A stretch of DNA of 64,000 bases from Brevibacillus brevis (GTDB taxonomy: Bacteria; Bacillota; Bacilli; Brevibacillales; Brevibacillaceae). The stretch spans positions 3,730,001 to 3,794,000 of the forward strand of contig NZ_LR134338.1 in assembly GCF_900637055.1 (NCBI RefSeq). Direction: 5' to 3'. The notes below the pieces were generated by a model that saw only the letters and a program-made list of their open reading frames with translations, searched no databases and was not told the DNA's origin. A program made the translations under genes and the position numbers. Shown here in pieces: positions 24,111 to 43,574 of the stretch (within the stretch, counting starts at the first letter, position 1; every line of letters begins with the position of its first letter).

Positions 24111-25799
24111 TTAGCGTTTGGCGTTATTGGACGTCTCAAATGGAACTTCCCAGTTGAGGTCTTGGTATTGGCGCTGTTGGATAGCGTGTGACAGCTTTAA
24201 TTCTTTCGGCTGTTTTTCAAGGTCGCGGATGAAGAATGTTCCTTCTACGTGCACGCGCCCATCCTTACCTCGCTTATAAGTTCCGTTGCGGGAGACATTG
24301 TATTTTTGTTTAGACTCATCCTGTGCTGACCATTCGCTCGTGTCAACAATCCCTTCTGGAAGAATGGCCGAGAACGAGATCAGTGCACCCTTTCCAAAAT
24401 AGGTCTCATTCCCGATTATTTCTTCTTCCTCCGTTGTTTTTAAGGTAAAGCCTGTCAAGGTATAGGTGCTGTCACTGTCCGTCACGGTCACTTTATCCTT
24501 TAACAAGGTATCCACCGGGATGGTTGCCTTAAATTTCGATGGCTCATACAGGTACAGGGAGTGCATTTTTAATTTGTACGATTGATCCTTTATTAGTGGA
24601 GTTATCCCATTCCATTTCGTAACTCCTTTACCGTCATCATGCACTTTTCCGCGGTACGAGTGCTTTACGTTGTTCTTTCGAATTTGGTTAAGTTCTTCAT
24701 GCAACGCATCGTCCCATCCTGCTACCACGTTCCCTTTTTCATCGAATATTTGGAACGCGACTCCCATGTCGATAAAATACCTCTCCATTCTCTCCGCTTC
24801 TGTGAATACACCTGTTTTTGGCTCTTTTACAATCCAGCCGTTTTGCTCTTTCCATTTTTGGATTTGTTCTTCTCTTTCTTTTGTCCAGTTAATTTCCATT
24901 TCCATCATACTCGTGCTCGGTACCGTCATCATGTTTTGCAGAACGATCTCAATACCATTTGTCGTGTATTTTTGTCCGATCTCTGTATAGTTCGCCACTG
25001 CCCTTGCCTTTTTCATATCAACCGGAAACTCTACCTTCCAGCTACCTTCTTTCCCATTCAACATGCTTGCTTCGACACCGACGATCATCTCATCTGGTAA
25101 TGACTTGCTATCTTTCAAGAATCGGAAAATATCATGGCTGACGACAAGATATTCTCCTTCTTGACCGTAGGAATAGCCCCCACCCCCAGGATTTAGGTCT
25201 TCACCTGACTTGGTTTTGTAAGTAAGCGAAAATGCGTCTTTTTCCGGATCAAACGGGATACGCTTGCCATTTTGATCCACGATATTGGCGATAATCGCCA
25301 TCCGCGCTGGGTCTGCAACCACTTCTTTGACAACCAGTGTAATCCCTTGATCCGTCACCTTTTTATTGATTTCCTGGACATAACCCTTCTCTGCTGCCTG
25401 CTTCATTCCTTGGTCGATGCCTTGTATGGATTGTATGACACTGTTTACGTAGCTCGCAAAAGTTGGAGATACCATGGACCCAAACGTAATGATTGCCGTG
25501 ACACTCGCTACGGCTAATGCAGTTTTCTTCAAAATGTTTACACTCCTTTTTTTCCAGTTTGGTTTTGGCTTCGGCAATTTCACTTGCTCTAATGCCGTCA
25601 TCACCTGGGCAGTAAAATCTGTGGGCAACGCGCTTGGAACGTGCAGGCTCGGAAACTCCTCGCCGCTATCCTCTTCCTCCATCATCTGCCGCTGACAGAG
25701 CAGGCAGTCTTCGACATGTCGTTCCAGCAGTCTAGATTCACCTGCTGATAGCTCATCAGCCAAATACTTGCGCAACTCTTCAGTTTTGGAGCAATTCAT
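24111..25799 (-). CDS. Zinc-finger anti-sigma factor with DUF4179 extracellular domain
   Basis: The 562-residue protein has an N-terminal anti-sigma zinc-finger motif (about residues 23-45, H-x3-C-x2-C in RHVEDCLLCQ), one membrane segment (about 105-125) and a large extracellular part with DUF4179-type and further beta domains. It overlaps the preceding ECF sigma gene by 20 bases, so it is almost surely the cognate membrane-bound inhibitor. The ATG at 25797-25799 has an AGGAGGTG site. The signal sensed outside the cell is unknown. Confidence 0.85.
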   Translation of the reverse strand: MNCSKTEELRKYLADELSAGESRLLERHVEDCLLCQRQMMEEEDSGEEFPSLHVPSALPTDFTAQVMTALEQVKLPKPKPNWKKRSVNILKKTALAVASVTAIITFGSMVSPTFASYVNSVIQSIQGIDQGMKQAAEKGYVQEINKKVTDQGITLVVKEVVADPARMAIIANIVDQNGKRIPFDPEKDAFSLTYKTKSGEDLNPGGGGYSYGQEGEYLVVSHDIFRFLKDSKSLPDEMIVGVEASMLNGKEGSWKVEFPVDMKKARAVANYTEIGQKYTTNGIEIVLQNMMTVPSTSMMEMEINWTKEREEQIQKWKEQNGWIVKEPKTGVFTEAERMERYFIDMGVAFQIFDEKGNVVAGWDDALHEELNQIRKNNVKHSYRGKVHDDGKGVTKWNGITPLIKDQSYKLKMHSLYLYEPSKFKATIPVDTLLKDKVTVTDSDSTYTLTGFTLKTTEEEEIIGNETYFGKGALISFSAILPEGIVDTSEWSAQDESKQKYNVSRNGTYKRGKDGRVHVEGTFFIRDLEKQPKELKLSHAIQQRQYQDLNWEVPFETSNNAKR

Positions 25800-26349
25800 A
25801 GATAGCAGCACCTCCTGACATTTCTTGCGCGATACTAGCCCGGAGCTTTTTCTTGGCGTGATGGATACGCATTTGTACAGTTGTGACCGGAACATGCAAA
25901 ATTTCGCTAATCTCTTTGTAGCTCATCTGTTCCAAGTATTTCAGCAAAAACACAACGCGGTATTCTTCACCCAACGCCATGATTTGCTGCTGCAAGGTAT
26001 CTTGCTTTTCTTTTTCCAAATAAGCTTTTTCGGGTGTATCGGATTCTATCAGCCTTGTCTCTTCCAAAGGTGTTTTGGCGTAGTGCTTATTCTTGCGCCA
26101 CGCGTCTATACACAAGTTGGACGCAATCCGATACAGCCAGGCCAAAAAAGCATCGGTCGGCTTATACTTATCCAATTGACAGTACGCTTTAATGAATGCC
26201 TCTTGTGTCAGGTCTTGGGCATCCTGTTGCTGCCCCGTCATTCGATAAAGATAGCTGTATAATCGATCTTTGTACTTGTCGACCAGGTGCGCGTAGGCAT
26301 CCCGATGCCCTGTTTGTACCTGTTGTATGAGCAACCAATCATCCTGCAA
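25780..26349 (-). CDS. ECF-type sigma-70 family RNA polymerase sigma factor
   Basis: The 189-residue protein has sigma region 2 (about 15-80, with DAQDLTQEAFIKAY and FLAWLYRIASNLCIDAWR) and sigma region 4 (about 120-175, EQMSYKEISEILHVPVTTVQMRIHHAKKKL, described in two halves). The first in-frame ATG (26362-26364) has no ribosome-binding site, but the sequence right after it contains GGGAGG placed 6 bases before a TTG at 26347-26349; I take TTG as the start. It is followed by its overlapping anti-sigma gene. Autoregulation is likely for this class. Confidence 0.88.
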   Translation of the reverse strand: MQDDWLLIQQVQTGHRDAYAHLVDKYKDRLYSYLYRMTGQQQDAQDLTQEAFIKAYCQLDKYKPTDAFLAWLYRIASNLCIDAWRKNKHYAKTPLEETRLIESDTPEKAYLEKEKQDTLQQQIMALGEEYRVVFLLKYLEQMSYKEISEILHVPVTTVQMRIHHAKKKLRASIAQEMSGGAAIYELLQN

Positions 26350-26412
26350 AGGAAATCCTCCCATTTCAAAAAAGTTCGCTGCGCAGCGTTCGTTTTGGCA
26401 GGTTCATATGGA

Positions 26413-26440: not shown

Positions 26441-26486
26441 AAAAATGATTACATTTTTTAAAAAAGTTTGAGTTAACATAGTGGAG

Positions 26487-26696
26487 GAGAAGAAAAAGCA
26501 CAGGTCTCTTCGACTCTGACACGCCCGCAAGGGGGATTCACTGTCCGTCTCCACTTAAAAAAGGGGACCGTCGAGCCAAAGCCACCCTACGGGCGGAAGT
26601 TTCTCAAGGAAGAAGTGTTCGACAAGCGTGGCCCTTTTTGAAGTTCCGACTGGGTAGGCGTTGTCAAGGCCTGCGAGCCCTGTGCTTTTTCTTCTC
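26487..26696 (+). ncRNA. Candidate structured non-coding RNA of about 210 nt (6S-like overall shape)
   Basis: No gene fits this stretch, but its ends form a perfect 18-bp closing helix (26487-26504 with 26679-26696). Inside follow a nearly symmetric 13/13-base loop, a second helix (26518-26525 with 26657-26665, one bulge), a third (26570-26576 with 26617-26623) and a hairpin (26547-26552 with 26563-26568). The third helix and the hairpin each need a G-U pair that would be an A-C mismatch on the other strand, so the plus strand is favoured. Length and the long closing stem with internal loops recall 6S RNA, but I cannot recognise a family by sequence. No clear promoter was found. Confidence 0.5.
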
Positions 26697-26728
26697 GCCA
26701 GCTTTGTTAGTCGAGTAATCGACAGCAT

Positions 26729-26754
26729 AAGAAAACCGCCCTTGATAAGGCGGT
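26729..26754 (-). terminator. Terminator after the ANT(6)-like gene
   Basis: A short stem (26735-26740 with 26749-26754, ACCGCC/GGCGGT) is followed by TTTTCTTATG on the minus strand, 14 bases past the stop codon. Confidence 0.65.
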
Positions 26755-26767
26755 CGAATGGCGTCCA

Positions 26768-27622
26768 TCATTTCCATGAATGGTAGATATTTTCCGCATA
26801 CCCGGTAATGGCTTCATCGTAATCTGGATACGGATATCCGAGGCTTTCTGCCACCGCTTTGGCGTACTTTCGAAATAGCTCATAGCAAGTGAATAACGCT
26901 TCCCACATGTCTGCGTAGCCACTTTCGCGATAAGTGGACAGTAGCGCTTCCCAATCTTCTTTTGGAAGATGGTGTTCGATAAATTTGTAATTTTTCCCGA
27001 CACTAAAGGTAAACCCTTTCTCACATCCGATTTGCCAAGCCATCATTCGCAATAGATTCGGTCGGGCGATTTCGTTGAGATGGTCAATCGCAAACAGGAT
27101 TTCTTTTCTCGCCAGACCTTTGACAACGTAAGTAGAAACCATCCAAAATTCATTGCAGCAGTCATCAAACTCTCTAGCAGTTGGCTTTTTGATCCAATAT
27201 TGATGATCGGAAGCGATCACCTCGTGTTTGACAAGCTCGTCCTTATCCAGTAAAACCTCAACCAGGCCGTCGCTATCGGCAAAATACTGCTCTGTCTCGT
27301 CTATCGGAATCAACGTCAGATCTACTTTATTTCCATCCTCAAATAGCATGAGATAGGAAAACCAATTCCCTAACTCGGACGGAAAAAGCTCCATATCTTC
27401 CGGTTTTTGCATCATGATTCGATTCCCAAAAACATCGAGCCATTGATCATTTTCCTTGAAAGAATCCATTTCTGTCACAAAATACGAAATATCATAATCT
27501 TGGAATGGATCAGCGAGTATATTTTTGTTCGTGCGTGACCCTTCCAAGGTTACCAAGCGGATTCGATCATCCCTCCTGGCGAAATCGATCAGCATGCCCA
27601 TCATTTCTTGTTCCGTTCTCAA
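26768..27622 (-). CDS. Aminoglycoside 6-adenylyltransferase-like protein (AadK family)
   Basis: The 284-residue protein matches the ANT(6)/AadK nucleotidyltransferases, which adenylylate streptomycin at the 6-position. The active-site pattern is visible as GSRTN (about residues 28-32) followed by DYDISYFV (about 42-49) and a third acidic position in NKVDLTLIP. Chromosomal homologues are widespread in Bacillales and not all give resistance. The start is TTG at 27620-27622 behind GGAGGGG. It is a lone gene between efp and the candidate RNA, interrupting the conserved yqh gene order. The substrate is not proven by sequence. Confidence 0.82.
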   Translation of the reverse strand: MRTEQEMMGMLIDFARRDDRIRLVTLEGSRTNKNILADPFQDYDISYFVTEMDSFKENDQWLDVFGNRIMMQKPEDMELFPSELGNWFSYLMLFEDGNKVDLTLIPIDETEQYFADSDGLVEVLLDKDELVKHEVIASDHQYWIKKPTAREFDDCCNEFWMVSTYVVKGLARKEILFAIDHLNEIARPNLLRMMAWQIGCEKGFTFSVGKNYKFIEHHLPKEDWEALLSTYRESGYADMWEALFTCYELFRKYAKAVAESLGYPYPDYDEAITGYAENIYHSWK

Positions 27623-43092: not shown

Positions 43093-43156
43093 AAAACAAA
43101 ACAGAGGCGGAAAAACGGGTACACCAAAATAATGGTGCCCATTTCTCCCCCTCTGT
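43093..43156 (-). terminator. Riboswitch-controlled terminator before gcvT
   Basis: A long interrupted stem (ACAGAGG...CCTCTGT outermost, 43101-43107 with 43150-43156; inner GGAGAAA/TTTTTCC and CACC/GGTG pairs) is followed by TTTTGTTTTGG on the minus strand. Its first arm overlaps the end of the second glycine aptamer, so glycine binding should prevent termination. Confidence 0.8.
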
Positions 43157-43352
43157 CCTTGGTACCTGAGAGTTACCTTGCCAATTACGTGAGGTGTAAA
43201 CATTCCTCACTTGCAAGTTTCCCCTTTGGTGGCTCGTGTGAGCTCTCTCCAGAGTTGCGTCCAGTAGAGGTACTTTTGCCTGAGAGATTCACCGTTACCG
43301 GCTTGCTCCTTCGGCGCTGCTGTGCTTCTCGCAGTCTCTCCCTACTACCTTC
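43145..43352 (-). ncRNA. Tandem glycine riboswitch (gcvT RNA)
   Basis: Two aptamers stand in tandem on the minus strand upstream of gcvT. The first (about 43268-43350) has GGGAGAGACTGC, GCGCCGAAGGAGCAA and AATCTCTCAGGCAAAAG. The second (about 43150-43256) has CTGGAGAGAGC, CACCAAAGGGGAAAC and AACTCTCAGGTACCAAGGACAGAGG. These are the conserved elements of the glycine riboswitch, which turns gcv operons on when glycine is plentiful. The expression platform is the terminator at 43093-43156. Confidence 0.95.
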
Positions 43353-43574
43353 ATTCGCGGTGGTTTCATAGTCATACATAAGTTTTTGCTATCATTTCCA
43401 TACTAATAGATGAACTACCTCTTTATCCTACCATGAGAGTCCGAAGTTGAAAATATACAAATTAACAGTCAGATTCAGAAAAACTTAACGAAACACATTG
43501 ACAATAGATAAATGTTCAGTTTTTTGGCATTAACCATGAAAGTTATGGCAGAGCTATGTAAAGGAGTATCTTAT

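Follow-up and report, generated by a model that had tools for sequence, protein, structure and literature searches.

The unassigned structured element at positions 26487-26696 of the window, the 64,000-nt stretch of Brevibacillus brevis DNA analyzed here, belongs to a large family of interspersed structured repeats, unnamed so far, found in Brevibacillus and its order. A sequence-only reading of the window had proposed a lone structured RNA; our results indicate instead an undescribed, abundant and order-wide family of hairpin repeats, which is probably mobile. The repeat unit is a rod-like hairpin of ~270 nt that carries no gene of its own and occurs singly or as a head-to-head pair. It consists of an outer helix, a middle helix, a conserved unpaired motif, an inner helix and apical hairpins. 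At its conserved core, the unpaired sequence GGGGATT[C/G]ACTG[T/C]CCG sits beside a helix of ~17 bp.

The window copy is located between an ECF sigma gene and an ANT(6)-like gene, and, as the sequence-only reading had held, no gene explains it. That reading had described a structure of 210 nt closed by a perfect 18-bp helix. The closing helix is present, with 26487-26504 pairing to 26679-26696, but the extent was too short: the element runs past both ends of this interval, from about 26466 to about 26733, and the aligned copies are conserved beyond it on both sides (GTTTGAGTCAACATAGTGGAG at the 5' end and ACCAGCTTTGTTGGTTCATCGATACC at the 3' end). The account of the interior was incomplete as well, missing a 17-bp inner helix (26553-26569 with 26630-26644). 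It was overlooked because the window copy has lost 2 nt from the 3' arm of this helix (GTGG--CCC, compared with GTGGTCCCC in most copies). The parts of the element and its neighbors, in order, are as follows:

25780-26364, minus strand: ECF sigma gene, the other neighbor.
26466-26486, plus strand: 5' conserved extension, GTTTGAGTTAACATAGTGGAG (family consensus GTTTGAGTCAACATAGTGGAG), conserved over subfamily A copies.
26487-26504, plus strand: outer helix P1, 5' arm; this helix is 97.2% paired over 71 copies.
26516-26675, plus strand: match to covariance model R1 (104.6 bits), the sole copy within the window.
26517-26525, plus strand: middle helix P2, 5' arm, TGACACGCC; its partner is 26657-26665.
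26531-26547, plus strand: superfamily signature, GGGGGATTCACTGTCCG, nearly invariant between subfamilies.
26553-26569, plus strand: inner helix P4, 5' arm, ACTTAAAAAAGGGGACC, with compensatory changes both within subfamily A and between subfamilies.
26570-26623, plus strand: apical part, comprising P5 (26570-26574 with 26619-26623), a small conserved hairpin (CCACCCTACGGGCGG, 26582-26596) and a second hairpin.
26630-26644, plus strand: inner helix P4, 3' arm, 2 nt shorter than in most copies.
26657-26665, plus strand: middle helix P2, 3' arm, GGCGTTGTC.
26679-26696, plus strand: outer helix P1, 3' arm, pairing with 26487-26504.
26697-26733, plus strand: 3' conserved extension, GCCAGCTTTGTTAGTC..., eroded, stopping at the terminator T-tract.
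26734-26755, minus strand: intrinsic terminator serving the ANT(6)-like gene, GACCGCCTTATCAAGGGCGGTT TTCTTATGCT, read in the direction of the element.
26768-27622, minus strand: aminoglycoside 6-adenylyltransferase-like (ANT(6)-like; streptomycin adenylyltransferase family) gene (PF04439, E 5.9e-122), context outside the element.

The 5' extension pairs weakly with the 3' extension. We take the window copy to be an ancient, mildly degraded family member placed just past the ANT(6)-like gene's terminator. Elsewhere in the window (43143-43353, minus strand) is a tandem glycine riboswitch with two aptamers (Rfam RF00504, 62 and 38 bits).

With the 210 nt as query, the genome to which the window belongs (G000; a single contig of 6.73 Mb) yielded 18 full-length copies at 90-100% identity, along with several partial ones. 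Subfamily A is present in ~20-30 copies in each of nine genomes of the genus (G000, G002, G005, G006, G011, G012, G018, G022 and G023). Subfamilies B (GAAGAAGCGCATTTCCAGTC...), C (GGAGGAAACAGGAGAAAACGCTC...) and D have the same architecture and motif; their stem sequences are not shared. By pattern, the signature was found in 16 of 26 genus genomes. An exact-motif scan of GTDB genomes returned Brevibacillus species only; the same kind of scan found no instance in IMG/VR, and a viral reservoir was rejected on this ground. The cross-subfamily covariance model R1, which spans 155 positions of the element core, has at least 115 matches in the genome of origin, a number to be read as a floor given that about 116 candidates were scored per genome. 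Other genomes of the brevis group contain at least 80-116 copies, and each remaining genus genome contains 3-61. Overall, R1 matches occur in all 26 genomes of the genus and in 36 of 39 genomes of the order, covering all seven genera sampled, and three genomes of genus g2 gave none, providing a natural negative control. Among 200 sampled Bacilli, 24 have a match, 12 of these being outside the family and mostly weak. Related elements were also identified in more distant genomes (L041, L042 and L191). A strong superfamily match (L331, G121:C126:7691-7840; E 6.8e-17) comes from a genome outside the family, where it sits on a small contig, and represents either horizontal transfer or contamination.

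Copies differ in how hairpins are combined. Subfamilies A and B consist of one hairpin per copy. In G001, G014, G087 and G127, hairpins are paired head to head at a spacing of about 125-270 nt, and in G001 the two are ~74% alike as inverted repeats. The recurrence of such pairs in four genomes makes a gene-less double hairpin of several hundred bp a common form of the element. In addition, C (plus) and D (minus) form tandem arrays of ~520-bp units at one site, with up to four units (L232, L236, L239 and L240).

That the element forms a real secondary structure kept through evolution is strongly supported. Over the 69 base pairs common to the plus- and minus-strand predictions, 97.8% of cells are paired in 71 subfamily A copies. 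These copies contain 60 compensatory cells; shuffles give 12.7, and sliding the partner by 1-3 columns gives no more than 26. Compensation is clearest in the 17-bp inner helix (ACTnnAAAAAGGGGACC with its complement). Covariation extends across subfamilies: when 19 superfamily representatives were aligned, of the 20 predicted pairs, 15 had changed on both sides, and almost all of these belong to the inner helix. Across subfamilies, this helix comprises 285 cells, including 268 Watson-Crick, 6 A-C and 1 G-T. As judged from these alignments, the structure is kept while its sequence is rewritten, by way of Watson-Crick pairs and with almost no G-U. Rewriting of this kind would favor a DNA hairpin, falling short of proof, and template-switch repair of quasi-palindromes could be an alternative source of such changes. 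One copy (L156, in G006) has the family sequence AAGTTCCGAC in the 3' arm of its inner helix replaced by AAGTGGAGAC, the exact complement of its 5' arm; this perfect palindrome is likely a template-switch (quasi-palindrome) correction caught in one species. Two subfamily A copies of G011 (L180 and L181) bear an internal insertion of ~100 nt at the inner helix.

The sequence-only reading had also assigned the structure to the plus strand on the basis of G-U pairs, and here our data disagree. Positions 26487-26696 fold at -87.3 kcal/mol on the plus strand (z -4.1 versus shuffles) and at -87.9 on the minus strand (z -5.05 versus shuffles). The minus strand thus folds equally well, and the fold does not fix polarity. 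Nor are G-U pairs commoner than A-C: the shared helices of 145 copies contain 131 G-U and 148 A-C cells, or 48 and 77 events, respectively, when counted by locus. If anything, this bias of one-sided changes would speak against a plus-strand RNA, and the pairing pattern appears no less compatible with a DNA hairpin than with an RNA.

Genomic location provides further information on what the element may be. Over 29 loci, a mean of 41% have an opposite-strand terminator no farther than 60 nt from the 3' end; the corresponding figures are 10% for same-strand terminators, 0% for the 5' end and 1% for control positions. At more than half of the subfamily A loci, no terminator was detected within 60 nt. 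Many subfamily B copies also lie behind terminators, with the hairpin turned round. Copies are positioned between the terminator and the next promoter. Their orientation follows replication. In six complete genomes, 147 of 147 subfamily A copies conform, without exception, to one orientation per replichore. The orientation switches once near the terminus, and in G002 once more at the presumed origin; in G000, GC skew bears out the replichore assignment. Read along the lagging-strand template, the terminator comes before the element. A riboswitch-like leader was considered and rejected, as nothing unites the genes downstream, and the copies keep a constant orientation to replication but not to genes. 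A second shared sequence, TTATAAATTCCTATACG, separates element and terminator in L054 and is also found in the L025 empty site; it is perhaps another terminator-associated repeat.

To trace movement, the flanks of four copies present in a single genome (L023, L090, L025 and L054) were searched in sister genomes. L023 is found only in G000, at 6.21 Mb; its site is without the element in all eight sister genomes, and most sister genomes also lack the insert at the L090, L025 and L054 sites. A remnant is kept at the L054 site in G005, and this case may reflect loss in other lineages. The inserts measure about 340-440 nt, with approximate ends, the empty sites being too diverged for a base-exact reading of the junctions or of any target-site duplication; on the 3' side, these young copies are extended by roughly 70-165 nt. 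In each of the four polymorphic cases, the insert stops at the A-tract and hairpin of an opposite-strand terminator. Lineage-specific insertions opposite empty sister sites indicate, on this comparison of genomes, that the element is mobile. Most subfamily A copies reside at about 26 loci common to several species, so present-day movement is slow, and about half of the shared loci are monophyletic in the tree, which makes those copies old. Single copies have been deleted or gutted in individual species. L041, from a distant genome, is near the same nucleosidase gene as locus 19; its homology is confined to the downstream flank, and the two were therefore not counted as shared descent.

We consider it probable, on balance, that the repeat is a non-autonomous mobile DNA element. 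Its hairpin would fold and be recognized as single-stranded DNA behind the replication fork, and a mobilizing enzyme provided in trans would place the element in the lagging-strand template, directly 3' of a terminator hairpin's T-tract. The placement of the terminator first on the lagging-strand template, the single orientation and the Watson-Crick stem together suggest recognition of folded single-stranded DNA. Two known systems behave comparably in part. IS200/IS605 elements acquire an orientation set by replication by inserting into the lagging-strand template (PMC5371812); group IIC introns also exploit the lagging strand, and their targets are DNA stem-loops (PMC10190682). A bolder proposal, which we advance only as a tentative possibility, is that these repeats constitute a new, order-wide kind of mobile element, namely gene-less double hairpins of up to >100 copies per genome that would move as folded single-stranded DNA into lagging-strand terminator hairpins by means of a recombinase outside the known single-strand systems.

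Candidates for the mobilizing enzyme were sought in the genome of origin, and none could be linked to the repeats. Its sole Y1 transposase is that of an IS605-type tnpA/tnpB element. The motif is absent from the single tnpA locus (L298) at up to four mismatches, and the IS605 tnpA was rejected as mobilizer for this reason. A PF00078 search yielded two reverse transcriptases (RTs) only, neither of which was judged a group II intron protein on reading the open reading frames; they look retron-type and DRT-like. One (L296, G000:C1:2409720-2410271; ORF 1222-2295) is a 357-aa RT beside a phosphoribosyltransferase-like ORF and was read as retron-type. The other (L297, G000:C1:6596950-6597357, minus strand) is a 614-aa RVT_1 protein beside a restriction-endonuclease-like ORF and is possibly a defense-associated RT. 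The only candidate for an autonomous partner sharing the ends of the element is L317 of G001, where a DDE transposase (DUF772/DDE_Tnp_1; L317:3869-5116) and two further ORFs lie between a plus and a minus hairpin 3.2 kb apart. This may be an autonomous form or an insertion sequence that landed inside a double hairpin; the case is ambiguous because the transposase is an IS-type DDE protein.

A serious rival to mobility as the main explanation is exaptation, in which an old mobile element now serves the host and each copy is under selection. The copies might mark a transcription boundary between the terminator of a leading-strand gene and the next gene, or form replication or nucleoid hairpins that face the fork one way, and their exceptionless orientation and their location between terminator and next promoter agree with such roles. 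We retain this explanation because conservation of the old copies exceeds what inert DNA should show. Between orthologs, divergence is about 1% at 134 columns, far below the 8-13% of their flanks, and 30-40% at some 35 loop and covarying columns. Orthologs also tend to group by locus in the tree and are kept in several species. Concerted evolution by conversion was rejected: paralogs are no more alike within a genome (identity 0.874) than between genomes (0.876), which argues against species-specific homogenization. Old copies are either each under selection or overwritten repeatedly by active ones, and, from these rates, their conservation seems to fit function at each locus better than junk. 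Against exaptation, the genes downstream have no theme, individual copies are deleted or gutted in single species, and fresh insertions exist. Weighing these points, we regard exaptation as a rather unlikely account of the family, well behind a mobile DNA hairpin.

Explanations based on RNA fare worse. Group IIC introns are known for the same terminator target and strand preference, and the repeat could in principle be a gene-less relative or satellite of such an intron, its RNA reverse-splicing into terminator hairpins of the lagging-strand template with an RT supplied in trans. However, no group II domain is matched in Rfam, the genome of origin encodes no group II intron protein by PF00078, and the helices avoid G-U pairs, making a retroelement of this type improbable. 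The view taken by the sequence-only reading, a single trans-acting structured RNA of plus polarity for which 6S RNA was the best guess, has in its favor a stable fold and genuine covariation. Its statement that no named RNA motif accounts for the region was correct, as there is no Rfam match at gathering score and only chance matches at a relaxed E-value. The 6S assignment itself failed: 6S RNA (RF00013) was matched neither at gathering score nor with E relaxed to 5, and this and other Rfam families were rejected. Dispersal in at least 115 copies in the genome of origin, insertion polymorphism, a strand-symmetric fold and the lack of a G-U preference are hard to reconcile with a single 6S-like RNA, which we consider highly improbable and already largely refuted.

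We thus favor the mobile DNA hairpin, and its significance extends beyond the window. A family with at least 115 copies in one genome, strict compensatory evolution and representatives in all seven sampled genera is missing from Rfam. In its copies, insertion at terminator hairpins is recorded naturally and with perfect polarity relative to replication. The puzzle that it poses is testable: either there is an unknown system of single-strand mobilization, or more than 100 hairpins per chromosome function in one fork direction only.

We found nothing on such repeats in Brevibacillus in the open-access literature, and comparison with known systems reveals partial likenesses. The element resembles 6S RNA in length and in its long closing stem; one or two loci per genome would be expected of 6S RNA, whereas this family is dispersed and probably mobile. 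Like MITEs, it is short, gene-less and present in many copies, has inverted ends (the double-hairpin arms being ~74% alike) and exhibits insertion polymorphism with empty sites. Unlike in MITEs, covariation keeps an extended structure and not the ends alone; the ambiguous L317 is the only candidate for an autonomous partner with the same ends. With group IIC introns it shares insertion 3' of intrinsic terminator stem-loops and use of the lagging-strand template, but it is without Rfam intron domains and without an intron protein in the genome of origin. IS200/IS605-derived elements (PATE) and REP sequences are likewise intergenic hairpin DNA with an orientation dictated by replication (here in 147 of 147 copies); the Brevibacillus rod is much longer and sits behind terminators, and no Y1 transposase associated with the motif was found. 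Integron attC sites, marked by R and L boxes and served by an IntI integrase, were also considered as a parallel, since they recombine as folded single-stranded DNA on the lagging-strand template. MRSC-65-2, a mobile/repeat sequence candidate from the Breaker laboratory, is thought to be selfish DNA or RNA whose structure is possibly relevant as DNA (PMC11109978). It too has one long covarying stem and dozens of copies per genome. It differs in having a UYCCGG repeat, while the subfamily A consensus (71 copies) is without CCGG and has its own motif, GGGGATTSACTGYCCG; Brevibacillus is not mentioned in the main text of that report. The closest published kind is therefore the class of "mobile/repeat sequence candidates" (PMC11109978), from which the family described here is set apart by its motif, its target and its replication polarity.
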